From positions 124,001 to 188,000 of the forward strand of contig JALVFE010000035.1 of the NCBI GenBank assembly GCA_027030245.1: DNA of 64,000 nt. The letters are read 5' to 3'. A program made the position numbers and the translations under genes. Shown here piece after piece: positions 3,065 through 17,021 of this stretch. Source of the stretch: Melioribacteraceae bacterium (lineage in GTDB: Bacteria > Bacteroidota > Ignavibacteria > Ignavibacteriales > Melioribacteraceae). The stretch's first letter is position 1. Each line of letters begins with the position of its first letter. A model generated the notes under the pieces. The model worked only from the letters and a program-made list of their open reading frames with translations. It ran no database searches and was not told the DNA's origin.

Positions 3065-4356
3065 CCTCCGGTTGCAGAACTATAAATTGTAAGTACTTCC
3101 GAAATTTTGCTCAAAATTAAATCCAACGGTTTTTTTTTAATTAATCCGTTCCTTAATTCATAGTATTGTTTCGGCAGGAATTGACTAATTAATGTATCGG
3201 GTATTTCAACGGAACTAAGATTATTTATTAAAGTATTAACGGATTGTTCTACGGTTGCATCCGTCCAATAATATCTTATTCTGTCGCTGTAACTGAAATT
3301 CATTGCCAATCTAATCTCTTCTTCGGTACCTTTGTAATGTTCTTTCCAATATTCCGGTTTCGATGTCATCGCATTTTCCAAAGTAGCAATTAAATTTGAA
3401 GGTGTCAAATCTTTCCGGTAATGCAATAATTCGTTTTCCATATAAGCTAACGCAAATAAAGCTTCTCTTAACGCGAAGGTTAACCAAGGACCCACTTTCA
3501 AAATAATAAAATGGTCCTCCACCATTTCTTTAAGATGAGCCGGTTTTTGATAATCGGTCGAATGGGCTTCGAAGTATAAATTTTCGTAGGACTCTATTTT
3601 ATTAATCAAATTAATATTCCTTTCGCGTGAATACGGTAAAATTTTAGAATCCGAAAATTCAACACCTGGTTGAACTACAATCGCCACAACCCTTTCCCAA
3701 GCGTCTTCCAATCCTTTCCTGTAAAATTCTTTCTTTGTCATTTCCACCGTTTCTTCCAATCCCTCTGGCGTAGTTGTTTCAATTTCTTCTTCGTTTTCGA
3801 TTGCACCGCCCGGTATCGGAACGTCCGTTCCAATAACATAAACGGGTTTGTCATTACTGCCGCCCGAAGGATTGTAGTTTTCTTCCACAACTTCACACAA
3901 TTCCGCAGCCCGCTTTGTTATTATCTCGCCGGGCAATTTTCCTTCAACCGTTTTATCGCCTGACAATACAAAACTGGTATCCAAATGAAATTTTCCGTAT
4001 CCCGCTTTAGCATAAGCTCTTATTTGTTCTTTGGCGTTATCCATAGCTAAGCGGGAATCCAAATTTTTCCAAACATTCGGTCCCAAATGGTCGCCGCCTA
4101 AAATAATATCGTTTTCCGGAAAACCATTTTTCTGCGCAACAGTAAAAACATAATCACGGAACATTTCCGGGGTCATTCCCGTGTATCCGCCGAATTGATC
4201 GACTTGATTGGACGTTGATTCAATCAATAATTTGTAGTTATGAATTTTTGCATGTTGCATGGCTGCGTTAATCACATATTTATTTGCAGAACAAATGGAA
4301 GTAATACCAACTTTTTGTCCTTCTTGTAATCTGTTTATTAATTCACCCAAAATCAT
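3061..4356 (-). CDS. kbaZ: D-tagatose-bisphosphate aldolase non-catalytic subunit, KbaZ/GatZ family
   Basis: A 431-residue protein closely matching the GatZ/KbaZ family along its whole length. Recognisable blocks are ATSNQ-like ESTSNQVDQFGGYTGMTP near the N-terminus, ILGGDHLGPN, VIGTDVPIPGG, AIVVQPGVEF, EAHSTDYQ and SDRIRYYW. In enterobacteria this subunit is required for full activity and stability of the KbaY/GatY aldolase. It overlaps agaS by 4 bp and the permease gene by 4 bp. Some family members have been described as tagatose-6-phosphate 4-epimerases or related enzymes acting on their own, so an independent catalytic role is possible. Family assignment is firm and the exact biochemical role is less so. 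Confidence 0.92.
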   Translation of the reverse strand: MILGELINRLQEGQKVGITSICSANKYVINAAMQHAKIHNYKLLIESTSNQVDQFGGYTGMTPEMFRDYVFTVAQKNGFPENDIILGGDHLGPNVWKNLDSRLAMDNAKEQIRAYAKAGYGKFHLDTSFVLSGDKTVEGKLPGEIITKRAAELCEVVEENYNPSGGSNDKPVYVIGTDVPIPGGAIENEEEIETTTPEGLEETVEMTKKEFYRKGLEDAWERVVAIVVQPGVEFSDSKILPYSRERNINLINKIESYENLYFEAHSTDYQKPAHLKEMVEDHFIILKVGPWLTFALREALFALAYMENELLHYRKDLTPSNLIATLENAMTSKPEYWKEHYKGTEEEIRLAMNFSYSDRIRYYWTDATVEQSVNTLINNLSSVEIPDTLISQFLPKQYYELRNGLIKKKPLDLILSKISEVLTIYSSATGG

Positions 4357-5549
4357 TTATAACCGTTTGCCTCAACGCCGTTATATTCATAAAGTTTAAC
4401 TCCTTGCACAACTCTTGTAATCATTCCGTCTTCCGAAGGATTATCGGGTTTCAAGCCGAGAGCAAGTGATTTGTAAAAACCCAAAATTTGTGCGGGAAGA
4501 ACAGACACAACCGTTAAAAATTCCTCCGGAACACTTTCACCGTTACCCGATAGTATTATTTTTAAATCAACATCCACTTCATCTATATCGTGTTCCATTA
4601 TTCCGATTTTGTATTTGGTTTTTCTTCCCGAATTTACCGACTTGACCAAATCAATCTCATATTTTTGGGAATACCGGTTATTCGAAAAAATATAAACCAG
4701 CAAAGTATTTCCGTTGATTACGGCTTTTGGTCCGTGTCTGAACCCCAAAAACGTGTCGTGTTTACAAATTATTTTGCCGTCCGATAATTCCTGTAACTTC
4801 AATTGAGACTCGCGCGCAACGCCTTCGAACAAACCAGAACCGAGAAAAACTACTCTTGTAAATTCTAAATTCGCAACCTCTTTCAACTTTCCGGAGTAAC
4901 GGTCAATTATTCTTTTTCCGTAATAGTAAATTATTTCTTTTTGGGATGTCAATCCGTTAATATCCTCTAACCTGCTCATAAGCAAACCCGTCAATAACAT
5001 TGCTGTAAAGCTGCCGGTCATTGCAAGACTTTTGTCATTCGCCTCGGAAGGAAGGACAAATACGAAATCATTAGAACCATTCCGGCTCTCAAGCGCCAGT
5101 TTTCCTTCTGCATTGCACGTAATAACAAAATTGTAAATCTCGTTACAATAATCCTTTGCCAGGGAAACGGCCTTAAAACTTTCGGGACTGTTACCGGATC
5201 TGGCAAAAGAAATCAATAACGTCGGGCTTTCTTTTAAAAAGTATAATTCGGGATGAGTTACCAAATTTGTTGTGGGCACAGCACGGACAGGTATTCCGCT
5301 GTTCTTCTGAAAAGGTCCTTCCAATACTTCGCCGATATAAGCGGATGTTCCGGCGCCGGTTAATATAATTTGAAGATTTGATTTCGATAAAACGGAATTT
5401 AAAAAAGCGGAAATCTCCGGACTCTCGTCAACAAGCTTATCCCACGTTTTCAGCCATAATTCAGGTTGACCCGCGATTTCGAATGCAGTAAAAAAACCCC
5501 CTTTTTTGCTTAACAAATCTTCTTCCAAACCCAAATAAGAATTCCTCAT
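4353..5549 (-). CDS. agaS: SIS-domain galactosamine-6-phosphate deaminase/isomerase, AgaS
   Basis: First gene of the operon, 398 residues. It has two SIS domains and the AgaS hallmarks ILTGAGTSA (residues 62-70), PTTNLVTHP, SFARSGNSPES (114-124), GFRHGPK and the C-terminal TRVVQGVKLY. AgaS converts galactosamine 6-phosphate to tagatose 6-phosphate and ammonia in the cytoplasm. The length equals E. coli AgaS (384) plus a short N-terminus. A TTGACA-17-TAATTT promoter lies 35-65 bp upstream with an inverted repeat over the -10 box. No AgaA/NagA deacetylase is present in the window, so the substrate may be galactosamine, or the deacetylase may be encoded elsewhere. Confidence 0.93.
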   Translation of the reverse strand: MRNSYLGLEEDLLSKKGGFFTAFEIAGQPELWLKTWDKLVDESPEISAFLNSVLSKSNLQIILTGAGTSAYIGEVLEGPFQKNSGIPVRAVPTTNLVTHPELYFLKESPTLLISFARSGNSPESFKAVSLAKDYCNEIYNFVITCNAEGKLALESRNGSNDFVFVLPSEANDKSLAMTGSFTAMLLTGLLMSRLEDINGLTSQKEIIYYYGKRIIDRYSGKLKEVANLEFTRVVFLGSGLFEGVARESQLKLQELSDGKIICKHDTFLGFRHGPKAVINGNTLLVYIFSNNRYSQKYEIDLVKSVNSGRKTKYKIGIMEHDIDEVDVDLKIILSGNGESVPEEFLTVVSVLPAQILGFYKSLALGLKPDNPSEDGMITRVVQGVKLYEYNGVEANGYK

Positions 5550-5581
5550 TTTTAACTCTTAATCAATTTTTCCTTTTTATT

Positions 5582-5599
5582 GCAAATTACGAAATTTGC
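5582..5599. promoter_or_regulatory. Candidate operator over the agaS -10 box
   Basis: Inverted repeat GCAAATT (5582-5588), spacer ACGA, AATTTGC (5593-5599). It covers the -10 element of the agaS promoter, which is where a DeoR-family repressor would act. Binding by the adjacent DeoR protein is inferred. Confidence 0.45.
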
Positions 5600-5612
5600 G
5601 TTTCCTTGTCAA
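5584..5612 (-). promoter_or_regulatory. Promoter of the aga-type operon
   Basis: On the minus strand, TTGACA (5612-5607) is followed after 17 bp by TAATTT (5589-5584), continuing as GCA. It lies about 35 bp before the agaS start. Spacing is ideal for the primary sigma factor, and the -10 resembles the Bacteroidota TAnnTTTG box. Confidence 0.7.
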
Positions 5613-5710
5613 GAACTTTTGTTTTCTTTCTTTTTAATTGTTATTTCCTTTTTATTTTTAGATTTTTTATCCGATTTGCTGAAATTTCATCATAAATGTT
5701 TAATTTTTAG

Positions 5711-5749
5711 GTTTATTTTTCATTATTTTTGATAATCACAAAAATAAAC
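5711..5749. promoter_or_regulatory. Inverted repeat just upstream of the DeoR gene
   Basis: GTTTATTTTT (5711-5720) and its exact complement AAAAATAAAC (5740-5749) are separated by 19 bp and end 11 bp before the deoR-type start codon. It may be an autoregulatory operator. The arms are low in complexity, so chance is possible. Confidence 0.35.
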
Positions 5750-5760
5750 TTATCTACAAG

Positions 5761-6543
5761 ATGCAAATACGGGAAAACGGAGATATAACAACCGAAAGAA
5801 GGGCAAAAATTCTTGAACTCCTCGAAAAAGAAGGAAGAGTATTCGTTAAAAACTTAAGCGAATTATTCAAGGTAAGCGAAGTTACGATACGCAACGATTT
5901 GGATCTACTCGAAAAGCGCAATTTATTAATAAGAATGCACGGCGGGGCTTTGAAAGTCCAAAGGGTAGGGATAGATTATCAATTGAGTGTAAAAGCCAAA
6001 AGGCATGCCGCCGAAAAAAGAGCTATCGGGAAAAAAGCCGCAGAGTTAATTAACGACGGCGAAACCATTATTCTCGACTCAGGAACAACAACCGAAGAAG
6101 TTGCAAAAAACTTAGGCGGATTTAAAGATTTAACAGTTATTACCAACTCGTTAAATGTCGCCGGTCAACTTGTTGAATTACCCAACGTGCGCGTAATTAT
6201 TCCGGGTGGTTATTTAAGGAGAAACTCACTTTCGCTTATCGGCTCTACAGCAGAAGAAAGTCTAAAAAAATATTACTGCGACAAAGTATTTATCGGCGTG
6301 GATGGAATTGATTCCCAATACGGTATTTCAACACCTAACGTGGAAGAAGCTCATCTTAATAATCTTATGATAAACATTTCGCGCGAAGTTATAGTTGTTA
6401 CCGATTCGAGCAAATTCAAACAACGGAGCTTTGCAAAAATTGCACCGATAACAAAAGTAAATACGATAGTTACTGATAAAAATATTCCTCCGGACGAAAA
6501 GCAAAATCTGGAAAATTTAGGAATCAAAATTCTTTTGGTTTAA
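5761..6543 (+). CDS. DeoR-family transcriptional regulator of the aga-type operon
   Basis: A 260-residue regulator with an N-terminal winged helix-turn-helix (about residues 10-65: ERRAKILELLEKEGRVFV, then VSEVTIRNDLDLLE) and a C-terminal DeoRC sugar-phosphate sensor domain (about 80-240, with LDSGTTTEEVA and VFIGVDGI). It is divergent from agaS, the usual place for an AgaR-type repressor that responds to a phosphorylated intermediate such as tagatose 6-phosphate or galactosamine 6-phosphate. There is no clear Shine-Dalgarno sequence before the ATG at 5761, which is common in Bacteroidota. Inverted repeats in the 210-bp divergent region are candidate operators. The family is certain and the target operon is inferred from position. 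Confidence 0.9.
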   Translation: MQIRENGDITTERRAKILELLEKEGRVFVKNLSELFKVSEVTIRNDLDLLEKRNLLIRMHGGALKVQRVGIDYQLSVKAKRHAAEKRAIGKKAAELINDGETIILDSGTTTEEVAKNLGGFKDLTVITNSLNVAGQLVELPNVRVIIPGGYLRRNSLSLIGSTAEESLKKYYCDKVFIGVDGIDSQYGISTPNVEEAHLNNLMINISREVIVVTDSSKFKQRSFAKIAPITKVNTIVTDKNIPPDEKQNLENLGIKILLV

Positions 6544-6555
6544 TTTATTTTTTTC

Positions 6556-6586
6556 TTGACAAGAACCTCAAATTGCACTATATTTG
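6556..6586 (+). promoter_or_regulatory. Promoter of the TetR regulator gene
   Basis: TTGACA (6556-6561), 17-bp spacer, then TATATT (6579-6584) continuing as TATATTTG, which also satisfies the Bacteroidota TAnnTTTG box. The TetR-type operator starts at the last base of this motif. Confidence 0.75.
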
Positions 6587-6601
6587 TGAGTGAGCATTCA
6601 C
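6586..6601. promoter_or_regulatory. TetR-type operator, copy 1
   Basis: GTGAGTGAGCATTCAC is an imperfect palindrome with GTGA/TCAC ends. It sits at the transcription start region of the tetR gene. An identical 16-mer occurs at 7219-7234 before the pump gene. TGAGTGA-TCATTCA-like sites are typical of TetR/AcrR regulators. This copy would give autoregulation. Confidence 0.8.
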
Positions 6602-6625
6602 TAACTTTTGAAAAAAGAGAAACAA

Positions 6626-7204
6626 ATGAATTTTACAGCAAGACAGGAACAAATAATTAATGTAGCAATCGAACTGATTGCAGAGAAAGGTATTCAAGAT
6701 TTAACAATAAAAAATCTTTCCGGCAGAATTGGTATTGCCGAATCAGCAATATACAGGCATTTTAAAAGTAAGCAAGATATTTTACTCGGTATTCTCGCAT
6801 TATTCGACAAAGATAAGAAAATGTTTATGGAAAAAATTAAAGAATCCGGTAAACCACCAATAGAGCAATTAAAACTGCTTTTCCAACTACGATTTAAATT
6901 TTTCAAGGAAAATCCCGCTATTGCTTCTGTAATTTTTTCCGAAGAAATATTTCGAAATGATCAAAGGCTTTCAAAAAAAATTTTTACAATTATGAATAAA
7001 AATCAAGAAATAGTTTTTGATATTATAAAAGCAGGACAAAAACAAAATTTAATAAGAAAAGATATTGACACACAAGAATTAGCGTTTATTATTATTGGTG
7101 CTTTAAGGTTAGTAGTTACAAAATGGCGGCTCTCAAATTTTGCCTTCGATTTGGAACAAGAAGGTAAAAAACTTTGGAATTCGGTAATGAAATTAATCAA
7201 ATAA
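6626..7204 (+). CDS. TetR/AcrR-family transcriptional regulator
   Basis: A 192-residue regulator. The N-terminal helix-turn-helix (about residues 5-50) reads ARQEQIINVAIELIAEKG and then IAESAIYRHFKSKQDIL, as in AcrR/FadR-type members. The C-terminal ligand domain is helical with no recognisable specificity. I prefer the ATG at 6626, preceded by AAAGAGA, over a TTG 18 bp upstream. The identical operators before this gene and before the pump gene indicate that it controls both. A hydrophobic or lipid-like ligand is plausible, because many TetR proteins next to RND pumps sense such molecules, but nothing in the sequence proves it. Confidence 0.9.
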   Translation: MNFTARQEQIINVAIELIAEKGIQDLTIKNLSGRIGIAESAIYRHFKSKQDILLGILALFDKDKKMFMEKIKESGKPPIEQLKLLFQLRFKFFKENPAIASVIFSEEIFRNDQRLSKKIFTIMNKNQEIVFDIIKAGQKQNLIRKDIDTQELAFIIIGALRLVVTKWRLSNFAFDLEQEGKKLWNSVMKLIK

Positions 7205-7218
7205 TTTTTTATAAAATG

Positions 7219-7234
7219 GTGAGTGAGCATTCAC
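7219..7234. promoter_or_regulatory. TetR-type operator, copy 2, upstream of the RND pump
   Basis: Exact copy of the 16-mer at 6586-6601, placed 25 bp before the pump start codon and directly after a TATAAA-like -10 sequence at 7210-7215. The second copy strongly supports shared control of the regulator and the three-gene pump operon. Confidence 0.8.
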
Positions 7235-7258
7235 AAACACAATTAACGGAGAAGTTAA

Positions 7259-9574
7259 ATGGAAAAATTCTTAAATAAAATTCTCGGGAAACCGGTTTTA
7301 GTATTGATTACAATCTTATTAATATCAATAGCTTTCTTCTTTGTAATGAAACAAAATTCAAGGATGGAAACTGACCTCGATAAATATATGCCGCAAGAAC
7401 ATCCTGCATTTATTTACAGTAATCAAGCGGAAAAGTGGTTCAATATAAAGGACGGGATTATTATTGCCATAGAAAACGAAAACGGAATTTATAATCCCGG
7501 GACCTTAAAAAAAATAAAAGATCTTACTAAAAAACTTCAAAAGATGAAAGAAATCGAAAAGAACGATGTGACTTCCCTTTATACAGCCGACAATATTGTA
7601 GGAACGGATGACGGTCTGGATGTAAAAGCATTTTATAAACGTGTACCGAAATCCAAAGAAAAACTGGACGAACTCAGACAGAAAGTAAGAAGCAACGAAA
7701 TGGTATTTGGCAGACTGGTTTCCGAAGACGAAACCGTTTCGGTAATAATTGCAAGAATTAACAACGATGTTTTTTCTCAAGATTTCTACAATAGAATAAT
7801 CGAAGTGTCCAAGGAATTTGAGGTACCGGAAAAAATTCATGTTGCCGGTCGACCGATAGTTGAAGGAACAATGGCATTGTTGGGTCCTGCCGACATGAAA
7901 AGAATGGTTCCGATTGTAATTCTTGTAATCATAATCGTTCTATATTTGGTTATGCGAAGCATTAAAAGTACTTTCTTTACTTTGCTCGTTGTTCTATTCA
8001 GCACAATTTGGGCATTCGGACTAATGGCCGCATTGGGTATTCCGATTTATGCGGTTTCCACTATGATACCGGTCATGTTAATTGCAATCGGTGTTGCCGA
8101 TGGTATTCATTTATACAGTCATCTTTTTCATTTTATGAAAGAAAACCCGGATGCCGACAAAAAAACCGCCGTTAAAAATATGCTGCACGAAATGTGGAAA
8201 CCTGTTGTAATGACATCAGTAACTACTGCCGTAGGGTTTATTTCCCTCTTAACTTCCGAAGTTTATCCTATAAAATATTTCGGAATATTCACGGCATTCG
8301 GAGTAATGGCGGCAATGATGTTTTCTCTTGTATTGATACCGGCGGGGATCCTTTCATTCGGACTTCCAAGACCGAAGAAAAAAATTAAGGAAGAAGATGA
8401 AACCGATTCTGATAATTCACCTCATTTCGCATATAAATTTGCTGATAGCGTTATCAAACATAAAAATATGATTTATGTTGCCACTGTTCTGATTTCCGCG
8501 ATATCGATTTACGGAATAACAAAAGTTTGGATAAACTCCAGCTTTTTAGAAAAATTTGAAAAAGACAGTGAAATTGTATTAACCGATAAATTTATTAACG
8601 AACATTTCGGCGGAACAAGTACACTAAATGTTATTCTCGAAGGAATTAACGAAGGTGAATTCAAAACTCCGGATGTGTTAAGAACGGTTGCACAAATGCA
8701 AGACGAAGTGGTCGGAGAACTGCCGGTTGTAGGCAATTCTTTCTCACTTGCCGACTACCTAAAAAGAATGAACAAGGTAATGCATGCAGACAGTGCAAAA
8801 TATGAAACCATACCCGATTCAAGAGATTTGATAGCTCAGTATCTTCTTCTTTATGAAATGTCCGGCGACCCTGAAAACCTCTGGCAAGTTGTAACAGAAG
8901 ATTATAAAAAAGCAAATATTACTTTTCAGTTGAAAAGTGATAACTCTAAAGCGCTTAACAGTGCAATAGACATTATTGAAAAATACAGACCCGAATTTAA
9001 AAAAGCCGGTATCGAATTAAACTATGCCGGTTCCGGGTATAAAGCTTTGGTGTTTACGGACTTAATTCTGGAAGGACAAATCAAAAGTTTGATTATGTCG
9101 TTGTTCATAATAATAATCTTACTTTCCTTAATGTTCAAAAAATTGAGTATCGGTTTAATCGGATCGGTACCGATTATCGTAACTGCATTAATCGGTTTCG
9201 GTATAATGGGTCTGTTGAATATTCCTCTAAGCACAACAACAGCATTAATTTCCAGCATTGCAATAGGGATCGGAATCGATTATGCCGTCCATTTTATTGA
9301 ACGTTACAAAATATATGCAAACCAAACAAACGATAAAACAAAAACAACCCATTATACTATGAAACATACAGGACGTGCAATTATCTTCAATGCAATTATA
9401 GTAATTGCCGGATTTTTGGTTTTGTTATTCTCTGTTTTTCCCCCAAACAGAACACTAGGCGCAATGGTCTCACTAAATATGTTTACAAGTTTTTTGGGAA
9501 CTATAACAATAATGTTGATAATTCTTTACAACGCAAATATTTACTTTAAAAATAAAAAAGGAGAACAAAAATGA
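7259..9574 (+). CDS. MMPL/RND-superfamily envelope transporter
   Basis: A 771-residue inner-membrane protein built as two repeats: one helix (about residues 12-30), a periplasmic domain, a bundle of five helices (about 215-370), then the same plan again (about 400-765). The bundles contain the family strings IGVADGIHLYSH and IGIGIDYAVHF with conserved acidic residues in the membrane. This is the MMPL/HpnN-like branch of RND proteins rather than a drug-efflux AcrB type, and no membrane-fusion protein or TolC gene follows. A strong GGAGAAG ribosome-binding site precedes the ATG. The stop overlaps the next gene by 4 bp. Transport of a lipid or other hydrophobic envelope molecule is inferred from family and neighbours. 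Confidence 0.9.
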   Translation: MEKFLNKILGKPVLVLITILLISIAFFFVMKQNSRMETDLDKYMPQEHPAFIYSNQAEKWFNIKDGIIIAIENENGIYNPGTLKKIKDLTKKLQKMKEIEKNDVTSLYTADNIVGTDDGLDVKAFYKRVPKSKEKLDELRQKVRSNEMVFGRLVSEDETVSVIIARINNDVFSQDFYNRIIEVSKEFEVPEKIHVAGRPIVEGTMALLGPADMKRMVPIVILVIIIVLYLVMRSIKSTFFTLLVVLFSTIWAFGLMAALGIPIYAVSTMIPVMLIAIGVADGIHLYSHLFHFMKENPDADKKTAVKNMLHEMWKPVVMTSVTTAVGFISLLTSEVYPIKYFGIFTAFGVMAAMMFSLVLIPAGILSFGLPRPKKKIKEEDETDSDNSPHFAYKFADSVIKHKNMIYVATVLISAISIYGITKVWINSSFLEKFEKDSEIVLTDKFINEHFGGTSTLNVILEGINEGEFKTPDVLRTVAQMQDEVVGELPVVGNSFSLADYLKRMNKVMHADSAKYETIPDSRDLIAQYLLLYEMSGDPENLWQVVTEDYKKANITFQLKSDNSKALNSAIDIIEKYRPEFKKAGIELNYAGSGYKALVFTDLILEGQIKSLIMSLFIIIILLSLMFKKLSIGLIGSVPIIVTALIGFGIMGLLNIPLSTTTALISSIAIGIGIDYAVHFIERYKIYANQTNDKTKTTHYTMKHTGRAIIFNAIIVIAGFLVLLFSVFPPNRTLGAMVSLNMFTSFLGTITIMLIILYNANIYFKNKKGEQK

Positions 9575-10350
9575 AACGATTAAGCTTATTAGCCTTACTG
9601 TTATTGTTAACGGCAATAACAATTCCGGCACAAAACAATCTAACCGGATTACAAATAATGGAAAAGGTTTATAATCGACCTACGGGAAATGATATGGAAG
9701 CTAATCTGACAATGATTCTGATTAGCTCAAGCGGGAACGAAAGGGTACGCGAAATCAAGCAGTATATTAAAGATTTCGGGGATGTCGAAAAGAAAATAAT
9801 GTTCTTTATTAAACCGGCCGACGTAAGAAATACATCCTTTATGAATTGGAGCTATGATGATCCGAATAAAGATGACGATCAATGGATTTATCTTCCCGCG
9901 CTTAAAAAAGTAAAACGAATTTCGAGCGACAGCAAAGGCGATTATTTTATGGGTTCCGATTTTACTTACGATGATTTAGGCGATAGAAAACCTAACGAAG
10001 ATACACACAAAATTTTACGCGAAGAAAAACTAAACGGCGAAGATTGTTACGTAATCGAAAGTATACCGAAAGACGAAGATTATATGTATTCCAAAACAGT
10101 TACTTGGATAGTTAAAGATAAATGGATAGGTCTCAAAAAAGAATTCTATGACGAAGACGGCGAGTATTTAAAAACTTTGAATATTAAAGATTATAAAAAT
10201 ATCAAAGGTTACTGGATTATTACCGGAACGGAAATGGACAACGTACAGAAAAATCATAAAACCATTATGAAACTTAGTAATGTTAAAATCGATATTGGCA
10301 TTCCCGCTAACAAATTCACCGAAAGAATGATGAAAAGAGGGCTAAAATGA
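9571..10350 (+). CDS. Periplasmic outer-membrane lipoprotein-sorting (LolA-fold) protein
   Basis: A 259-residue exported protein with a signal peptide ending near IPAQ (residues 1-21). The rest is rich in beta strands and contains the features of the COG2834 'outer membrane lipoprotein-sorting protein' group: FFIKPADVRNTSFMNWSYDD, QWIYLPALKKVKRI, GSDFTYDDLGDR and an ESIPKDEDY segment. These proteins share the LolA/LolB fold and carry hydrophobic cargo across the periplasm. It overlaps the pump gene and the barrel gene by 4 bp each. It is not the housekeeping LolA. I infer that it takes cargo from the RND protein and passes it to the barrel. Confidence 0.85.
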   Translation: MKRLSLLALLLLLTAITIPAQNNLTGLQIMEKVYNRPTGNDMEANLTMILISSSGNERVREIKQYIKDFGDVEKKIMFFIKPADVRNTSFMNWSYDDPNKDDDQWIYLPALKKVKRISSDSKGDYFMGSDFTYDDLGDRKPNEDTHKILREEKLNGEDCYVIESIPKDEDYMYSKTVTWIVKDKWIGLKKEFYDEDGEYLKTLNIKDYKNIKGYWIITGTEMDNVQKNHKTIMKLSNVKIDIGIPANKFTERMMKRGLK

Positions 10351-11591
10351 AAACGTTAAAATTTCATAATCTTATTGTTTTAATAATCCTCGGATTATTT
10401 TCCACAACAAATTATGCCCAAGATTTATCGTTGACCGGTTATGCGCGTAATTATACCGGCTTGCTTATAAATGGCGATAACAATTTCTCAATAATCCAAA
10501 ATACTTTTAACTTAAATATTGAGCAAAGAAAAGATATAGTTGCTTACAAGGTAAATCCGTACATGTACCAATATGCAAACAGAGAACTTGAGTTGGGATT
10601 GCGCGAAGTATATTTGGATATCTACTTAAATTCCATTGATATAAGAATTGGTAAGCAACAAATAATTTGGGGAAAAGCCGATGGGGTTTTCATTACCGAT
10701 ATAGTTTCTCCGAAAGATTTGCGCGAATTCTTATTGCCCGATTTCGACGAGATACGAATGGGAGTAAATGCCATTAAAGCTGATTATTACATCGGCGATA
10801 ATACATTCGAGTTGGTTTGGATTCCTACTTTTACTCCTACTTTATATCCCGATGCTTCCTCAATTTGGCAACTCAAGCCGGATTTCCCGGTTAATCCCAC
10901 TTTCGATTACTCGAAAGTAGATGTTGAACAATCTTTTAAAAACAGTGAAATTTTCGGAAAGTTTTCAATGCTTACATCCTTAATCGATTTGGAAATTATG
11001 GGAGCTTATGCATGGGATGACGATCCGACAATGCACGCATTCAAACAAATCGATCCCGCAACACATACTTTAACAGGTTTGAAAATCGTTCCGGAACATC
11101 ATCGATTGACAATCGGGGGAGGAAGTTTCAGTACAACGGTCGGACCATTTGTTTTTAGAGGCGAAGGAGCCTATTACAACGGTAAAGGTTTTAACACGAC
11201 AGATCCTAAAGTACAAGACGGCGTTGTGGAGAAAGATTATTTACACTACTTACTCGGTACAGATTTCACTGTTTGGGATATCAATACCAGCATCCAATTC
11301 ATCCAACAAAGAATATTGGATTACAATGATTTTATTAATACCGACGAAGTACAAAACATGGCAACCTTTCTTGCCGCTACCGATTATCTGAATGAAACGT
11401 TGCATTTACGATTTTTTATGTATTACGATTTCGAAAACAGTGCTTCGTTAATACGTCCGACTATCACTTATGACGTTGCCGACGGTTTTACGGCTTTATT
11501 GGGGGCAAATATTTTTACCGGAACAGAAGGTATGTTCGGGCGGTTTAATAATAACGATATGATTTATACGAAAATTAAATACAGTTTTTAA
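10347..11591 (+). CDS. DUF1302-like outer-membrane beta-barrel protein
   Basis: A 414-residue protein with a signal peptide (about residues 1-25, ending NYAQ) and alternating hydrophobic/polar strands through to a C-terminal aromatic residue (KYSF), the usual end of an outer-membrane barrel. The segment IRIGKQQIIWGKADG followed by SPKDLREF (about residues 95-125) is characteristic of DUF1302-like proteins often found beside MMPL pumps and LolA-fold proteins. Translation is coupled to the preceding gene. It is the outer-membrane end of the system by inference, possibly a receptor or conduit for the exported molecule. Confidence 0.8.
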   Translation: MKTLKFHNLIVLIILGLFSTTNYAQDLSLTGYARNYTGLLINGDNNFSIIQNTFNLNIEQRKDIVAYKVNPYMYQYANRELELGLREVYLDIYLNSIDIRIGKQQIIWGKADGVFITDIVSPKDLREFLLPDFDEIRMGVNAIKADYYIGDNTFELVWIPTFTPTLYPDASSIWQLKPDFPVNPTFDYSKVDVEQSFKNSEIFGKFSMLTSLIDLEIMGAYAWDDDPTMHAFKQIDPATHTLTGLKIVPEHHRLTIGGGSFSTTVGPFVFRGEGAYYNGKGFNTTDPKVQDGVVEKDYLHYLLGTDFTVWDINTSIQFIQQRILDYNDFINTDEVQNMATFLAATDYLNETLHLRFFMYYDFENSASLIRPTITYDVADGFTALLGANIFTGTEGMFGRFNNNDMIYTKIKYSF

Positions 11592-11625
11592 CCCTACTCC
11601 ACATTCATAATCGATACCCACAAAG

Positions 11626-11648
11626 CCCGGTTTCATTAAGAAACCGGG
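11626..11648. terminator. Bidirectional terminator between convergent genes
   Basis: CCCGGTTT (11626-11633), loop CATTAAG, AAACCGGG (11641-11648), followed by TTTTTATTTT on the plus strand. The hairpin includes the last codons and stop of the minus-strand SPFH gene. Confidence 0.85.
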
Positions 11649-12409
11649 TTTTTATTTTCATTTTTCTTTAGAAACGGTTCGAGTAAATCAATCGGAACCG
11701 GGAAAATTGTTGTTGAATTCTTCTCCGATGCAACTTCCGTCAATGTTTGCAAAAACCTCAGTTGAAGCGCAATAGGTTCGTCGGCTATAACTTTCGCTGC
11801 TTCGCTCAATTTCTGACTTGCTTGAAATTCACCTTCGGCATGAATAATTTTCGCTCTTCGTTCCCTTTCCGCTTCCGCTTGCTTTGCCATTGCGCGCTGC
11901 ATTTCAACAGGCAAATCCACGTGCTTTATTTCAACGTTAGAAACTTTAATACCCCACGGTTCCGTTTGATGATCGATTATTTTCTGTAACTGTGCATTAA
12001 GTTTTTCCCGCTCGGCAAGTATTTCATCGAGCATAGATTGACCGAGAACGCTCCTTAGCGTTGTTTGCGAAAGTTGGGAAGTGGCGTCGAAATATCTTTC
12101 AACTTCAACTACCGCTTTATCGGCATATACAACCCGGAAATAAACAACGGCATTTACTTTTAGCGATACATTGTCTTTCGTTATTACGTCTTGCGTCGGA
12201 ACATCTAAAACGACGGTGCGTAAACTTACGCGAACCATTCTATCAACAATCGGTATCAAGATTATTAATCCGGGACCTTTCGCGCCGATGAGTCGCCCCA
12301 ACCGGAAAACAACGCCGCGCTCGTATTCCCTTAAAATCCTTATTGCATTTGCTAAAATCAGCACAACGAATAAAATTATCACTCCAATGTATGTTGGCAA
12401 CGGTCCCAT
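11636..12409 (-). CDS. SPFH/Band-7 (slipin/stomatin-type) membrane protein
   Basis: A 257-residue protein with one N-terminal membrane helix (about residues 5-24) followed by the SPFH domain ([21 protein letters not shown], about 28-48) and a helical region rich in Glu/Arg/Ala (about 170-215) that usually drives oligomerisation. It belongs to the slipin branch found next to long NfeD proteins. The NfeD gene lies 15 bp upstream on the same strand. Such pairs assemble into inner-membrane cages that organise or protect membrane domains, and the NfeD-type protease can cleave the stomatin C-terminus in archaeal examples. The physiological role here is unknown. Confidence 0.92.
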
Positions 12410-12424
12410 AATGCCTCCGATTTA

Positions 12425-13708
12425 TTATTTAACTTTTTTAACTTTTAAAATTAAGTTCGAAACTTCCACAACAACCACTTTTTCGTTTTTACTTATCGGA
12501 CCTTCCACGCTTTCGGCTTCCCAAATCTCTCCGTGTATTTTAACTTGTCCAGCTGGATTCAATTTTGTTAAAGCGGTTCCCTCTTCGTTTATCAATCCCT
12601 CTTTACCGGTGGAAGGCTTTAACCTTTGCGCTTTTATTCCCAACCCGATTGCAAAAAGGAAAAACAGAAGCGTTAAGCCTGTTATCAAAATAATTACTTC
12701 CCAAGAAATAGATACGGCTTCCAAAGCGGATTCCACATCGATTAACATTATCGATCCCAGAACAAGCGATATTGTTCCGCCGATACTTAACAAGCCGTGA
12801 CTCACAATCTTAACTTCGAGAACAAACAAAATTATTCCGAAAATAATGAGCGCCAGTCCGGCATAATTGACCGGAAGAGTATTGAGCGAATAAAAAGCCA
12901 ATATTAAACTTATAACGCCGATTACTCCGGGAAAAATTGCGCCCGGATTGTAAAGCTCGAATAACAATCCGTAAATCCCCAGCATAAAAAGAATATATGC
13001 AATGTTCGGATCGCTTATCACATTCAAAATTTTCTGCTTAAGCGTCATATCGAAGAAAACCGTTTTCGCATTTGCCGTTTCCAGCTTTACCTTTCCGCCG
13101 GGTAATTCAACTTCCTTTCCGTCCGCTTCTTGCAAGAGTTGTCTTACGTTTTCCGCAACCAAATCTATAATGTTTTTATCCAATGCTTCGGTTTCCGTAA
13201 TCGACAAACTATGCCTTACGGCTTCTTCCGCCCATTTAACGTTTCTTTTACGTTTCTCGCTTATTGTTCTTATGAAAGCAGCGGCGTCGTTTGTTGCCTT
13301 TGTCATCATTATAGAATCTTGTTGACCCTGAAGTGTAACCGGATGCGCGGCTCCCATGTTTGTTCCCGGAGCCATTGCGGCAATATGCGCCGCTAACGTT
13401 ATGAAAACTCCCGCCGATGCGGCACGCGAACCGGAAGGATAAACATAAACCACAACGGGTAACGGGGAATTCAATATATTTTTTACTATCTCACGAGTTG
13501 AATTTAAGAGTCCGCCCGGAGTGTTTAATTCGATTACTAAACATTCCGCATCCATCGACTGCGCTTTTTGAATTCCGGTTTTAATGTAATCGGCCGATGC
13601 CGGATTGATAGCGCCGTCGATTCCTATTACCAATACCTCCGATTCTTGTGCAGCCGGGAAAGTGGAAAATAACAAAAGGCATGCAAAGATTAATTTTATT
13701 CCTCGCAT
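12425..13708 (-). CDS. Long-form NfeD membrane serine protease (ClpP-class)
   Basis: A 427-residue protein in the order signal peptide (1-20), ClpP/SppA-like serine protease domain (about 25-220), four to five membrane helices (about 230-365), and a C-terminal soluble OB-fold NfeDC domain (about 375-427). The protease region contains YPSGSRAASAGVFI, with the nucleophile Ser in the ASAG context, and GTNMGAAHPV, both as in archaeal 1510-N stomatin-specific protease. A general base Lys is likely within the following helix. It is the upstream partner of the SPFH gene and the two are probably co-transcribed. Confidence 0.92.
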   Translation of the reverse strand: MRGIKLIFACLLLFSTFPAAQESEVLVIGIDGAINPASADYIKTGIQKAQSMDAECLVIELNTPGGLLNSTREIVKNILNSPLPVVVYVYPSGSRAASAGVFITLAAHIAAMAPGTNMGAAHPVTLQGQQDSIMMTKATNDAAAFIRTISEKRKRNVKWAEEAVRHSLSITETEALDKNIIDLVAENVRQLLQEADGKEVELPGGKVKLETANAKTVFFDMTLKQKILNVISDPNIAYILFMLGIYGLLFELYNPGAIFPGVIGVISLILAFYSLNTLPVNYAGLALIIFGIILFVLEVKIVSHGLLSIGGTISLVLGSIMLIDVESALEAVSISWEVIILITGLTLLFFLFAIGLGIKAQRLKPSTGKEGLINEEGTALTKLNPAGQVKIHGEIWEAESVEGPISKNEKVVVVEVSNLILKVKKVK

Positions 13709-13756
13709 GACATTTCCGATATGTTTATCTTTTTATTTAAAATATGGAAAATTAAG

Positions 13757-14545
13757 ATGATTAGCAACAGAGACGGAATTAATTATAATTTACTTTCGGA
13801 CGGTTACGATAAAAGATACGATTATAATGATCATCCCGAAATTACGCTTGCAATCAACAATTTAATCCCTGCAAACAATTGCGTATCTGTTTTGGAAGCG
13901 GGAGCCGGCACTTGCCATTGGTTGAAAAATATACGGAATAAAAATGTAGAACGTTTCGGCATCGATATTTCTTTGCAAATGCTTCTTAAAGCGGATAAAA
14001 ATTCACACAAATTGAATTTGGTAAACGGTGACGCACAATTACTGCCGTTCAAACGGGAATCTTTTGATATGATTTTTTGCGTGAACGCACTCCATTACTT
14101 CCGGAACAAATCAAAATTTTTTGCAGAAGCTTTCTCCGCTTTACGTGGAAACGGTTTACTGGCAATTTATACTTTCGATCCGAGAACAAAAGGCGACCAT
14201 TGGTACATTTACGATTACTTCGAAGGAGTGTATGAATTCGATTTGCAACGTTTCTTGTCCGTCGATGAAATCGGGAAACAATTGACTGAAAACGGTTTCG
14301 AAAATATTCAAATCAATAAAACGGAATTTATATCCGACGATAAAACTCCAGACAATATTTTCAACGATCCGTTTTTAGAAAAAGGGGGTTCTTCCCAAAC
14401 GGCAATGTTAAGCGGGAAAGAATACGAGCGCGGAATGGAAAAAATAAAAAATGAAATAAAAGAAGCGGCATCGAACGGAAAAGAATTAATATTTCCCGTC
14501 AGGCTCACTATGTTCGAAATTACCGGAAGGAAACCTAAGCATTAA
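13757..14545 (+). CDS. Class I SAM-dependent methyltransferase
   Basis: A protein of about 262 residues with the Rossmann-type methyltransferase motif I (VLEAGAGTCHWLKNI), an acidic residue after strand 2 (FGIDIS), motif II (NGDAQLLPF) and a post-II FCVNALHYF segment, as in UbiE/BioC-like enzymes. I choose the ATG at 13757, giving MISNRDGIN, over the ATG at 13721, because the extra twelve residues are hydrophobic and atypical and would run the start almost into the divergent NfeD promoter. The acceptor substrate cannot be predicted. The 3' end overlaps the convergent histidine kinase gene by 11 bp. Confidence 0.85.
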   Translation: MISNRDGINYNLLSDGYDKRYDYNDHPEITLAINNLIPANNCVSVLEAGAGTCHWLKNIRNKNVERFGIDISLQMLLKADKNSHKLNLVNGDAQLLPFKRESFDMIFCVNALHYFRNKSKFFAEAFSALRGNGLLAIYTFDPRTKGDHWYIYDYFEGVYEFDLQRFLSVDEIGKQLTENGFENIQINKTEFISDDKTPDNIFNDPFLEKGGSSQTAMLSGKEYERGMEKIKNEIKEAASNGKELIFPVRLTMFEITGRKPKH

Positions 14546-17021
14546 CATTGGTTTGGGCTTTAATTTCCTCTTTCCAAACGGGCAACGTAAAGATGAATTC
14601 GCTTCCTTTTCCGATTTCGGTTTCGACCCAAATCTTTCCGCCGTTTTTCTCGACGAACTCTTTCGATAAAATCAAACCGAGACCCGTGCCTTTTTCCTGA
14701 TCCGTTCCTTTCGTTGTTACATGCTGATCGATTCTGAATAATTTATTTTTAATCTCTTCCTTCATTCCCACGCCGTTATCTTTCACGGAGATTTGCAGAT
14801 AGTTTTCTTTCTCTTCAACTTTAACTCTCACTTCACCGCCGGATTTGGTAAACTTGATTGCGTTAGAGAGAAGATTTCTTATAACCGCATCAACCATAAA
14901 CTTATCGGCAAACACTTTTATATCTTCCGTTACTTCGTTGATTAGTCTGACCTTTTTCTTGGTGGCATTTACTTGGAACAATGCAATTATGGTATCGATA
15001 AGCGAAGTTAAATTAAATTCCGAAGGCGTATACTGAATTTTACCCGATTGAATTCTCGACCACTGCAAAAGGTTTTCGAGAAGGGCAAAAATATTTTTAG
15101 CCGATTTATAAATGTTTGTGGAAAATTCTTTTATTTCTTCTTTGGGAAGGTCGTCAAAATCCTCTACAAGATATTCGGCAAAACCGAGTAATGAAGTAAA
15201 CGGACTTTTCAAATCGTGAGAAATTATCGAAAAGAATTTATCTTTATTAGCGTTCAGCTCTTTAAGTTGTTCTTCCGATTCGATCAGTTTTTGATTTAAC
15301 TCAATCATCTTTTGTGCGTTTTCTTCAATCAAATCCCGGTTGATCTGAAGCTCTTCAACAAACCGTTCTATTTCCGCTTCGTATTCTTTTCTCTCTTTAA
15401 TATCGTGGAAAGCCGTTACGGTTCCCACTATTTCGCCGTTTCTGATTATCGGTGAAGTAACGAAAGATACGGGTAGAAGATCACCCGATTTTATTTTGAA
15501 ATAATCTTCCCGGATTCTGTAAATCTCGCCCGTCTCCAGCGCGCGCGTTATCGGGCAATCGTGTATTTCTTCTTCGGATTCGTGCATGGAATGTATTAAG
15601 CTGTGCAGCTTATGGTTTTCAAGATCTTGTTCCGTCCATCCTAAAAGTCTTGTAAATTCCGGATTGATAAAATCCGCATACCCGTTTTTATCGAGCACAA
15701 AAATTCCTTCACCCAGAACCGAAGTTATTTCTTTAAGCTTCGTTTCGCTTTCCATTAATTGGTTTGCAATCATTTTCCGCTCGTTTATATCGAGCGTGGC
15801 TCCGATGAAACCGATAAATTCACCGTTCGATAAAAACCTTGGTATTGCTTGATCCAATACCCATTTGTAATTTCCGTCGCCGTCTTTCAACCGGTATTCA
15901 ACGCTGAATCTGCTTTTTTGTTCGTATGCATCTTTAATTACCGAGTTATAATATTCGATATCGTCCAAATGTACTTTGTCTTCAGGAATTGTCTCGAGTT
16001 CGCTTTCCAAATTATTATTTCTGAACTCAAGCCATGCTTTGTTAAAATAAGTGTTATTGGACTCACGGTCTGTCATCCAAATCATAAACGGCAAATGATC
16101 GGCAAGATAAAAGAATCTTTCTTCCAATTCCTTCAACATTGTTTGGGTATTTTTTTTCAGACTGATATCCGTCACGGTTCCGATTACATACCGGGGTTTA
16201 CCGTTTTCATGTTCGGCAACCCGTGCGGTAAACGAAACCCAAAGCCAGTTACCTGTTTTGGTGAGTAAACGGAATTCGCACTCGAACCTTTCGGCTTTTC
16301 CTTCGGCAATTCTACGGAATGTTTCGGTCACTCTTAGTTTATCTTCGGGGTGAACTTGTTTTTCCAATGATGAGTGCTCTGCCGGTAATTCGTTTTGTCC
16401 GTATTCTAAAATTTCATGAAAGCCTTTCGAAAGCACAAGTTTATCGTTTTGCACGTTCCATTCCCAGAAACCGATGCCGAATTCATCAATCATCATCTTG
16501 TGTTTTTTCTTTTCATTCTCAAGGCGTGCAAGTTCGGCTTGTAAATTTTTAATTAATTCTTTTTCCACACCTTCCTTGCTCTCGGATTCTTCTTCCCCGT
16601 TCTTTTTTAGTTTAATCGCTTCTTCAAGATGTTTTCTGTTCGTTACATCGTTAACCGTAATCGTGGCGCCGGTTACTTCATTGTTGTTTATCACCGGATT
16701 GAAAAAGAAATCGTAATAAAGTTTTTTGCCTTTAATTTCGTATTCAAAATTTTTCTTAAATTTTTCTCCGCTCAAAACTCTTGCGAAACATTCTTTCCAG
16801 ATACTAAATTTTTGCTCTTCATCCGATTCCAGCAGTGATGACAAATCCCGGTTTTCATCGAATTCCGTATTAAAAAACAAACGATACAAATCTTTAAAAG
16901 CATGATTATACGCAATAATTCTATGGTTTTTATCAATCGCCCAAACAGGATAAGGCGAATTTTCCAGAAAGGATTTAAATGTAGATTCCAAGTCCGATGA
17001 ATTTTGTAATACTAATGTCAT
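14535..17021 (-). CDS. Multi-PAS soluble sensor histidine kinase
   Basis: An 828-residue kinase with no membrane helices. Domains in order: PAS (about 10-125), a charged coiled-coil linker, a PAS/PAC (about 180-295), a third PAS (295-420), a fourth PAS (425-545), a coiled coil, a HisKA dimerisation domain with phosphoacceptor His about 602 in SIISHDLKSPF, and an HATPase_c domain with N-box NLLSNAIKF, DNGVGM and GTGLGL motifs. It has no receiver domain and no response regulator gene next to it, so its partner is elsewhere. The several PAS domains suggest cytoplasmic sensing of small molecules or redox state. No cofactor-binding residue was identified. Confidence 0.93.
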   Translation of the reverse strand: MTLVLQNSSDLESTFKSFLENSPYPVWAIDKNHRIIAYNHAFKDLYRLFFNTEFDENRDLSSLLESDEEQKFSIWKECFARVLSGEKFKKNFEYEIKGKKLYYDFFFNPVINNNEVTGATITVNDVTNRKHLEEAIKLKKNGEEESESKEGVEKELIKNLQAELARLENEKKKHKMMIDEFGIGFWEWNVQNDKLVLSKGFHEILEYGQNELPAEHSSLEKQVHPEDKLRVTETFRRIAEGKAERFECEFRLLTKTGNWLWVSFTARVAEHENGKPRYVIGTVTDISLKKNTQTMLKELEERFFYLADHLPFMIWMTDRESNNTYFNKAWLEFRNNNLESELETIPEDKVHLDDIEYYNSVIKDAYEQKSRFSVEYRLKDGDGNYKWVLDQAIPRFLSNGEFIGFIGATLDINERKMIANQLMESETKLKEITSVLGEGIFVLDKNGYADFINPEFTRLLGWTEQDLENHKLHSLIHSMHESEEEIHDCPITRALETGEIYRIREDYFKIKSGDLLPVSFVTSPIIRNGEIVGTVTAFHDIKERKEYEAEIERFVEELQINRDLIEENAQKMIELNQKLIESEEQLKELNANKDKFFSIISHDLKSPFTSLLGFAEYLVEDFDDLPKEEIKEFSTNIYKSAKNIFALLENLLQWSRIQSGKIQYTPSEFNLTSLIDTIIALFQVNATKKKVRLINEVTEDIKVFADKFMVDAVIRNLLSNAIKFTKSGGEVRVKVEEKENYLQISVKDNGVGMKEEIKNKLFRIDQHVTTKGTDQEKGTGLGLILSKEFVEKNGGKIWVETEIGKGSEFIFTLPVWKEEIKAQTNVNA

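Follow-up and report, generated by a model that had tools for sequence, protein, structure and literature searches.

Background

The closest described system is AmeABCD, which mediates monoterpene efflux in Castellaniella defragrans. According to the available text of the report, a single cassette in this bacterium encodes an HAE3-type RND pump, a periplasmic DUF1329 protein (LolA fold) of the LolA superfamily and a DUF1302 outer-membrane protein, in the order barrel-carrier-AmeC-pump, and deletion of ameABCD decreases monoterpene tolerance and increases Nile Red accumulation; the same text describes HpnN as working without periplasmic or outer-membrane partners (PMC6394551). In P. putida, as presented in the accessible part of the source, the genes for a DUF1302 barrel and a DUF1329 carrier have the same phenotype on Tween 20 as those for a periplasmic protein and for a multidrug efflux transporter whose family is not named there; judging by locus numbers, these are two separate gene pairs (PP_0765/PP_0766 and PP_2018/PP_2019, with PP_2018 as an extra periplasmic protein) rather than one operon (PMC10866462). 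The TetR-MMPL-LolA-like operons of P. gingivalis and Prevotella (e.g., PG1178-1181) encode the same annotated parts as the locus described here and are iron-regulated. The DUF1302, DUF1329 and LolA_like proteins themselves have no agreed function.

Gene organization and protein families

The locus is located in a 64,000-nucleotide stretch of a Melioribacteraceae genome (the window). The segment 6556-11652 reads as one transcription unit, promoter-tetR-pump-carrier-barrel-strong terminator (Table 1), and from this layout tetR looks like a member of the same unit as the pump, carrier and barrel genes rather than a separate gene. The preliminary description stated that the three envelope genes overlap by 4 bp, and indeed an ATGA overlap is found at both junctions; together with the promoter at the start and the terminator at the end, these overlaps give the locus the anatomy expected of a co-transcribed unit. 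The operon is bordered by genes of other systems, with AgaR, GatZ/KbaZ-like and SIS-domain proteins encoded on one side and SPFH and NfeD on the other. The ORF listing gives a longer tetR variant with a TTG start at 6608. None of the four operon proteins matches PADLOC (0/4), and a role in anti-phage defense was dismissed.

Table 1. Predicted features of the operon (window positions)
Feature	Positions	Strand	Description
tetR promoter	6556-6586	+	TTGACA 6556-6561, 17-nt spacer, TATATTTG 6579-6586
Operator 1 (20 bp, predicted)	6586-6605	+	overlaps the -7 element of the tetR promoter
tetR ORF	6626-7204	+	ATG start; 192 aa; TetR-family repressor
T-run	7205-7210	+	directly 3' of the tetR stop; 8 nt before operator 2
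Operator 2 (20 bp, predicted)	7219-7238	+	between tetR and pump
RND/MMPL pump ORF	7259-9574	+	inner membrane; 771 aa; HAE3-like
LolA-fold carrier ORF	9571-10350	+	259 aa; PF17131, related to DUF1329; signal-peptide-like N-terminus (by eye)
DUF1302-family outer-membrane beta-barrel ORF	10347-11591	+	414 aa; C-terminal Phe
Intrinsic terminator, operon end	11622-11652	+	-19.5 kcal/mol, z -7.1

The pump matches the Pfam MMPL family above the cut-off, and its best NCBIfam match is HAE3 (TIGR00921), with 266.8 bits against a cut-off of 351.9. Structurally solved relatives of this pump are, among others, HpnN, MmpL3, NPC1-related proteins and Patched. The pump shares with HpnN and MmpL3 membership in the RND superfamily, in which these two proteins export hydrophobic lipids, but it scores far below the family cut-offs (109.5 vs 751.85 and 51 vs 1100 bits for the HpnN hopanoid models); the score for BstA of the BstABC sterol transporter is likewise low (25.2 vs 1400 bits). 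The earlier suggestion of a hopanoid or sterol-like cargo thus finds no support in the family scores.

The barrel protein belongs to DUF1302 (44.0 bits, cut-off 23.2). A search with its profile against the PDB sequences yields no match at E <=1, so its relatives are recognized only by fold comparison: the predicted model (pLDDT 91.8) matches Occ/OprD, MOMP and AlgE barrels along the mature protein with Z of about 20-22.5, the Occ/OprD folds being the nearest and AlgE almost equal (Z about 20-21). The regulator contains TetR_N (47.5 bits) and the YsiA-like TetR_C_4 (42.1 bits), both above the Pfam cut-offs, so that the C-terminal domain is YsiA/FadR-like. The closest chains of known structure are 5gpa/5gp9 and 3whb, and 3whb bears the name fatty acid metabolism regulator; the best NCBIfam match is the acyl-CoA repressor FadR of Bacillus, although the score of 77.6 bits against a cut-off of 200 places the protein outside that family.

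The carrier matches LolA_like (PF17131, 227 bits) and DUF1329 (54 bits, cut-off 23.1) but not the LolA family proper (Pfam, E <=0.1), and its assignment to the LolA lipoprotein carriers was abandoned. The predicted model (pLDDT 89.4) has as its top match, and nearest solved relative, LolA3 of P. gingivalis (9TP6; 41% identity, TM 0.81 by query length). We take this protein (PGN0947) to be perhaps the product of PG1179. The LolA fold and the database name of the carrier could point to a second lipoprotein-sorting route, and LolA3 was itself first filed as a LolA paralog, according to the available portions of the sources (PMC11885536, PMC13103446). Such a role is highly improbable given that only PF17131 and DUF1329 are matched in Pfam, that the RND gene lies directly upstream of the carrier gene in 73 of 80 loci, and that, in the same portions, P. 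gingivalis LolA3 binds LolB weakly (PMC13103446) and deletion of F. johnsoniae LolA3 has no observed phenotype (PMC11885536, PMC13103446).

The family scores and predicted folds thus bear out the description of the locus as a set of TetR, RND, LolA-fold and outer-membrane barrel proteins. The preliminary description presented this set as a trans-envelope route unlike AcrAB-TolC, Mla and Lpt. The distinction is fair, and none of the four operon proteins is a membrane-fusion protein or a TolC-type channel; a precedent exists, however, in the AmeABCD plan, which is built from an HAE3-type RND, a DUF1329 (LolA-fold) and a DUF1302 protein. The cassette includes both the DUF1302 protein and the DUF1329/LolA-superfamily protein of that plan, but the order of the three genes is pump-carrier-barrel, and the set has its own TetR and twin operators. 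AmeC (COG4447) is missing from the window cassette, with no gene between the three and AgaR-like and SPFH genes at the flanks; PF14870, which we take as a proxy for COG4447, matches 3 times in the genome, always outside the contig that contains the window (C35). Because AmeC is missing, the set is a variant of the AmeABCD plan and not an AmeABCD member.

Operator sites and regulation

The 16-mer GTGAGTGAGCATTCAC is found at 6586-6601 and 7219-7234, and no other site in the window matches it even when 3 mismatches are allowed; in 100 shuffles of the window, the mean number of matches was 0.13 and 2 matches were reached once. The claim that the same 16-bp palindrome precedes regulator and pump holds for the identity of the two copies but not for the symmetry: only 6 of the 8 pairs match, and the unit conserved among relatives is 20 bp long, GTTAGTGA-N4-TNACTAAC. 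A scan for further copies, which had been proposed as a way to define a regulon, was run on the 3.8-Mb genome (97.7% complete) and detected no exact copy other than the two in the window; one further match with up to 2 mismatches, on contig C40, lies inside a coding sequence and was discarded. The degenerate pattern GTKAGTKA-N4-TMACWMAC (<=2 mismatches) gives 9 forward and 11 reverse matches, fewer than the 16 and 20 obtained with the reversed-pattern control, so that no sites beyond the two in the window stand out and a genome-wide regulon was rejected.

In relatives, the operator precedes tetR in 33 of 44 cases and the pump gene in 28 of 62, compared with 1 of 150 control regions (counted without the 11 seed loci, L065, the sister triad L020 and the duplicates L074 (= L056) and L090 (= L053)). 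The operator is not a trait of the whole family: it is absent before the tetR of the sister triad and before the pump gene in all 15 scored rows of the Prevotella-type loci, which form a separate branch in the pump tree (FastTree, with long-branch warnings). This tree omits L090 as well as pumps of <=740 aa among the 80 named loci and of <=700 aa among the other loci; the sister-type or distant loci L020, L061, L062, L064, L066 and L067 carry their own label and no operator label, and an absent upstream region is scored as 'none'.

These observations bear on the possibility that the set is an iron- or heme-response transporter similar to PG1178-1181. In P. gingivalis, genes for TetR, MMPL, a LolA-like and a hypothetical protein show some of the strongest increases when iron or hemin is lacking (PMC10434189, PMC10470040), and so do P. 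intermedia operons that combine these parts with ABC genes. Nevertheless, this interpretation is very unlikely because the pumps of the Prevotella-type loci branch separately, two ABC exporter genes lie between the operon parts in one of them (L135), and the operator is missing before the pump gene in the 12 loci that have room but no TetR within 1 kb (best score 4.7 bits; more distant tetR genes of some of these were outside the scoring).

The tetR promoter has an 11/12 sigma-70 match, with TAnnTTTG being presumably the Bacteroidota -7 element; the scan returned 23 promoter-like sites, no excess over shuffles (21.2). TTGAC is present at the promoter position before 22 of 41 tetR-side operators and TAnnTT before 17 of 41, against 1 of 36 and 0 of 36, respectively, for pump-side operators (seed loci included), which led to the rejection of a separate pump promoter. 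The sole pump-side operator with TTGAC is that of L112, whose site resembles the tetR-side type. Another candidate, TTGACA-N16-TATTAT within tetR (7065-7092), was rejected given that TTGACA is not kept in the aligned stretch of the nearest relative, L049.

A T-run is located 8-14 nt upstream of the pump-side operator in 27 of 35 scored sites (without the 11 seed loci, L065, L020, L074, L090 and L112), and this T-run/operator module recurs in relatives at the end of tetR or, where genes are inserted, before the pump gene. Hairpin folding at the 27 T-runs gives z < -1.5 in 9 and an energy < -4 in 12, and the T-run of the window has z +0.7. A hairpin in every T-run is thus rejected, and what is conserved is the T-run and its spacing rather than a terminator hairpin. 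The combination of an operator 2 that shows no promoter with a T-run at this distance suggests a repressor-gated terminator, although the T-run may also be a T-tract promoter element. Tentatively, TetR on operator 2 could stand in the way of RNA polymerase and halt it while the 3' end of the RNA lies within the T-run, so that transcription would terminate after tetR even with a weak or absent hairpin; an inducer would relieve this roadblock together with the block at the promoter.

Genomic context and functional prediction

The gene linkage over 80 loci, the recurring operator, the contrast between operators 1 and 2 and the second triad are new here. Among the 80 named relatives, the pump gene is directly upstream of the carrier gene in 73 and a barrel gene follows in 75; a tetR gene is present in 45 of the 57 loci with room. 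Barrel relatives are patchy (20 of 77 genomes). The most common neighbors encode an unassigned protein, cupin, DUF2147, DUF3943 and YtfJ. Two smaller clusters, with one member checked in each, are patatin-Omp85 (L073, L085) and CDP-alcohol phosphatidyltransferase (L073, L098). The genome of the window contains a second, sister triad with a different operator, and a gene for cyclopropane-fatty-acid synthase (CFA synthase) lies downstream of it. In a genome of the same family, a more distant set (L065) has its genes for barrel and carrier, and the beginning of one for a pump, amid genes for patatin, acyltransferase, thioesterase, aminotransferase, glycosyltransferase and phasin.

Taken together, gene order, protein families, predicted folds, operators and conservation, all read from sequence, are best compatible with the inducible removal of hydrophobic, fatty-acid-like or membrane-active molecules, as in AmeABCD, to which we assign a probability of roughly 0.47. 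Under this prediction, the FadR/YsiA-like TetR would bind at operator 1, which overlaps the only clear promoter, as well as at operator 2 in the tetR-pump interval, until released by a hydrophobic inducer, probably fatty-acid- or acyl-CoA-like. The operon would then yield a presumably proton-driven HAE3/MMPL pump that could lift a hydrophobic or amphiphilic molecule from the inner membrane, a periplasmic LolA-fold carrier that would shield the molecule across the periplasm, probably in contact with the other parts, and an 18-strand-type barrel that would let it leave or enter the outer membrane, with export the likelier direction. The most common neighbors in relatives are not lipid-synthesis genes, in better agreement with an inducible clearing system than with an exporter coupled to biosynthesis; the CFA-synthase gene of the sister triad fits membrane stress. 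The flanking genes from other systems, the patchy presence and the AmeABCD and P. putida precedents also count for efflux. Counting against it, the sequence does not reveal the direction of transport, the pump and TetR fall below the HAE3 and FadR cut-offs, AmeC is absent, and the PG1175-1181 operon of P. gingivalis, with the same annotated products plus ABC genes, answers iron/hemin limitation and not hydrocarbons (PMC10434189, PMC10470040).

The patatin-Omp85 and CDP-alcohol phosphatidyltransferase genes, at 2 loci each, also count against efflux and, along with the CFA-synthase gene, the L065 neighborhood and the solved relatives of the pump, would fit delivery to the outer membrane of a lipid made by the cell (e.g., a modified fatty acid, a glycolipid or a hopanoid-like molecule). 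This explanation is possible but doubtful considering that no lipid-synthesis family is found among the checked neighbor clusters recurring in >=3 loci (one member each), that the HpnN models score far below their cut-offs, and that the presence of the set is patchy.

The Occ/OprD channels, the nearest folds of the barrel, are known for uptake, and the barrel and carrier might bring external lipids or hydrocarbons inward, with the RND protein as acceptor or recycler. To our knowledge, RND pumps of known direction export, and AlgE, an exporter, matches the barrel almost equally. Uptake could be meant by the P. putida phenotype, where, in the accessible text, the DUF1302/DUF1329 genes are needed on Tween 20 (PMC10866462), and would agree with a Thalassolituus protein combining MMPL and LolA-like domains that, in the text at hand, rises on C28 alkane (PMC6304351); however, the ameABCD deletion leads to a loss of tolerance, as described in the available text (PMC6394551), and uptake appears unlikely.

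The efflux prediction aside, the coupling of carrier, pump and barrel in most of the 80 loci, often with an added tetR gene, suggests that, in Bacteroidota, LolA3-type proteins belong to an RND system instead of being spare lipoprotein carriers. The 20-bp operator motif can be used to find further operons, and the near-fixed spacing between T-run and operator makes repressor-gated termination a testable model. If this model is true, the pump genes would be placed behind two serial locks, and the repressor would keep its basal supply.

Organization of the operon

The ORF calls bear out the positions of the four genes given in the preliminary description (table), as well as the 4-bp overlaps claimed among the three envelope genes, with ATGA at both the pump/carrier and the carrier/barrel junctions. 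The identical 16-mer reported ahead of both tetR and the pump, GTGAGTGAGCATTCAC, is found at 6586 and 7219; its reading as a palindrome holds for 6 of the 8 base pairs and fails for the remaining 2. The suggested scan for further copies of the 16-mer, run on the 3.8-Mb genome (97.7% complete), returned these two exact copies only, and at up to 3 mismatches the window contains the same number of sites (mean of 0.13 in shuffled sequences, 1 of 100 of which reached two). Given the promoter and the terminator at the two ends of the unit, the anatomy supports a single predicted transcript spanning tetR, pump, carrier and barrel. The observation is real, and the anatomy first proposed is correct.

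Features of the operon (+ strand; positions in the window)
Feature	Position	Remarks
Promoter, TTGACA-N17-TATATTTG	6556-6586	start of unit
Operator 1	6586-6605	before tetR
tetR	6626-7204	ORF
Operator 2	7219-7238	between tetR and pump
RND pump	7259-9574	ORF
LolA-like carrier	9571-10350	ORF
Barrel	10347-11591	ORF
Terminator, 13 pairs	11622-11652	-19.5 kcal/mol, z -7.1; end of unit

On the 5' side, an AgaR-type repressor gene next to divergent GatZ/KbaZ-like and SIS-domain genes (3061-6543) forms an amino-sugar catabolic locus; just past the terminator lies a convergent SPFH/Band 7 and NfeD gene pair (11636-13708).

Identity of the four proteins

The regulator combines TetR_N with a YsiA-like C-terminal domain, both above cut-off; its top NCBIfam match is Bacillus FadR (77.6 bits, below the cut-off of 200), and among solved structures, the closest chains are those of the TetR/AcrR regulators 5gpa/5gp9 and of 3whb, named a fatty acid metabolism regulator. 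The pump belongs to the MMPL/RND proteins (148.6 bits), with HAE3 as the top named family (266.8 bits against a cut-off of 351.9) and HpnN, NPC1-related proteins, Patched and MmpL3 among its solved relatives. The carrier matches PF17131 (227 bits) and also DUF1329 (54 bits); its model (pLDDT 89.4) resembles LolA3 from Porphyromonas gingivalis (9tp6; 41% identity, TM 0.81 by query length), as well as 3bk5 and 4z48. The barrel is a DUF1302 protein (44 bits, cut-off 23.2) whose model (pLDDT 91.8) matches Occ/OprD channels, Campylobacter MOMP and AlgE over the length of the mature chain (Z about 20-22.5); Occ barrels have 18 strands. Phe414 is near-invariant among 61 aligned barrels, as expected of an outer-membrane barrel.

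In the carrier and in the barrel one stretch stands out. Positions 101-140 of the carrier (YLPALKKVKRIS...DYFMGSDFTYDD) have the commonest residue in 85-87% of the rows on average (71 carriers), compared to 51-73% in the remaining 20-residue blocks past the signal region; for positions 101-140 of the 61 barrels, the values are 76-84%, and 44-66% elsewhere. According to the model, barrel residues 105-139 are a long segment joining two strands. Both stretches probably take part in docking or gating.

Gene linkage in relatives

With E limited to 1e-5, a barrel search gave matches in 20 of 77 related genomes, counting paralogues and the window's own genome. Scanning named genomes with the carrier alignment yielded at least 585 relatives, of which the best-scoring 80 were kept, so that the sample leans to close kin. 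Two related contigs match records from named genomes (L056 equals L074 in full, L053 equals L090 at 91% of 31-mers; L-numbers denote loci). In these 80 loci, the pump is found no more than 1.5 kb upstream of the carrier in 73, with 75 having room, and downstream of it in 3. A barrel comes next within 4 kb in 75 loci (73 of the 74 that have room), and 45 of the 57 loci with room have a TetR gene at most 1 kb from the pump. Exact ATGA-type overlaps are not general (pump/carrier 11, carrier/barrel 17, both 5, with start codons assigned mechanically). Record titles span several phyla, but most records are metagenome bins, so some phylum labels may be wrong. The carriers of L069 and L070, from bins titled Caldisericaceae and Calditrichia, are 81-83% identical to that of the window, which would reflect either recent transfer or misbinned contigs.

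In five relatives (L050-L054), a different, second TetR-like gene separates tetR from the pump, and a YtfJ-like gene separates the pump from the carrier (Pfam scan on L052). A protein of about 300 aa follows the carrier in L055, L057, L081, L083, L096-L098, L101, L102, L110, L111, L113 and L114; the two members scanned (L055, L098) gave no Pfam match.

Conservation and contexts of the operator

A 20-bp weight matrix was derived from twelve sites picked by eye in the window and relatives, and its test left out the window, the ten seed relatives, duplicates, L065 and the sister triad. Above a threshold of 12 bits, a site is present ahead of tetR in 33 of 44 loci and ahead of the pump in 28 of 62 (both sites in 22 of 44, at least one in 36 of 44); above 18 bits, the counts are 26 of 44 and 18 of 62. 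Control regions exceed 12 bits in 1 of 76 cases upstream of the carrier and 0 of 74 upstream of the barrel, and the top shuffle score was 17.5 bits (130 regions x 50). In a FastTree phylogeny of 80 pumps, the window belongs to a 56-row branch (support 83 at the fork, with long-branch warnings), 50 rows of which have an operator site, and the operator is found in none of the 15 scored rows of the 16-row Prevotella-type branch (L061 is the sixteenth). At least 7 changes of operator state are required on this tree.

The two operators occur in distinct contexts, although the loci are related and the counts, which include the seed loci for the promoter elements, are therefore not independent. TTGAC precedes operator 1 in 22 of 41 cases, and 17 of 41 carry TAnnTT at the edge of the operator; for operator 2 the counts are 1 of 36 and 0 of 36. 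In 27 of 35 cases, operator 2 lies 8-14 nt past the end of a T-run (6 of 7 T), against 17% in shuffles, 13% in 864 random intergenic stretches and 6 of 69 after barrel stops; for operator 1, a preceding T-run is seen in 13 of 41 cases at distances of 0-19 nt, with 7 at 8-14 nt. An operator site falls between the end of tetR and the pump in 37 of the 53 loci where the two genes occur together. In many of these 37, the T-run directly follows the tetR stop codon (in the window, TAATTTTTTATAAAATG-operator); a few, e.g., L095 and L130, have no T-run before operator 2. Where genes are inserted, the T-run/operator pair is located at or near the tetR end, or ahead of the pump. A hairpin with z below -1.5 accompanies only 9 of 27 T-runs and is not found at that of the window.

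The T-run may be a T-tract promoter. The geometry suggests that TetR on operator 2 may act as a roadblock: a polymerase whose nascent RNA ends within the T-run would run into the bound TetR, and polymerase stalls at about this distance from a bound protein.

Further carrier loci

On contig C20 of the same genome (L020, 3252-11698), a second triad retains the order tetR, pump, carrier, barrel; next come genes for a DUF5916/CBM9-type barrel protein (assigned by Pfam through its L064 relative) and a cyclopropane-fatty-acid synthase (317 bits); all six genes are retained in one same-genus genome (L064). This tetR is preceded by a different, perfect 20-bp palindrome, TTTCGACTAATTAGTCGAAA, found in one place at 0 mismatches and in five more at 2 (reversed-pattern control, 0). 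Given their separate operators, the two triads presumably answer to separate inducers.

On contig C16 (L021, 5776-11138), a third PF17131 carrier has as gene neighbors a TetR regulator, two FtsX/MacB-type permeases and an ABC ATPase; this is a LolA-like carrier with a LolCDE-like partner. In L065 (G013:C4:63000-80000, 7662-17000), genes for a distant barrel and a carrier, plus the beginning of a pump gene, are clustered with patatin, acyltransferase, thioesterase, PLP aminotransferase, glycosyltransferase, ABC1 kinase and phasin genes, possibly as a lipid-export cluster.

Predicted function

An inducer would release TetR from both operators; the pump would take a hydrophobic molecule out of the inner membrane, the carrier would ferry it, and the barrel would release or insert it. 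Neighbors recurring in the 80 loci (one member of each cluster scanned) are the 300-aa protein (11), cupin (9), DUF2147 (7), ABC exporter (6), permease-like protein (5), DUF3943 (5) and YtfJ (3). This gene set is more in line with inducible clearance than with a biosynthetic exporter but is no proof, since patatin-Omp85 and CDP-alcohol phosphatidyltransferase genes are each present in 2 loci.

The closest tested case is AmeABCD, the monoterpene efflux system of Castellaniella defragrans, deletion of which lowers tolerance to unfunctionalised monoterpenes and increases Nile Red accumulation (PMC6394551). On Tween 20, P. putida needs its DUF1302 and DUF1329 proteins along with a multidrug efflux transporter and a periplasmic protein (PMC10866462).

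The P. gingivalis operon PG1175-1181 has the same annotated products as the window operon, plus ABC genes. Its expression increases 13- to 136-fold when iron is lacking (PMC10434189), and among the genes lowered by excess hemin, its TetR, LolA-like, hypothetical and MMPL genes top the list (PMC10470040). Iron control of the window operon is possible, but Prevotella loci sit in the operator-free pump branch, and this control is therefore not transferred to the window. LolA3 has so far been studied alone: the P. gingivalis protein has a crystal structure and binds LolB weakly, and no phenotype was observed for the F. johnsoniae deletion (PMC13103446, PMC11885536); the terms RND, MMPL and operon are absent from PMC13103446. 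No description of a TetR-RND-LolA_like-DUF1302 unit with this operator was found in the largely open-access journal literature searched. The kind of transporter itself is already known, the window operon being a variation on it, and the most interesting part is the conserved regulatory layout.
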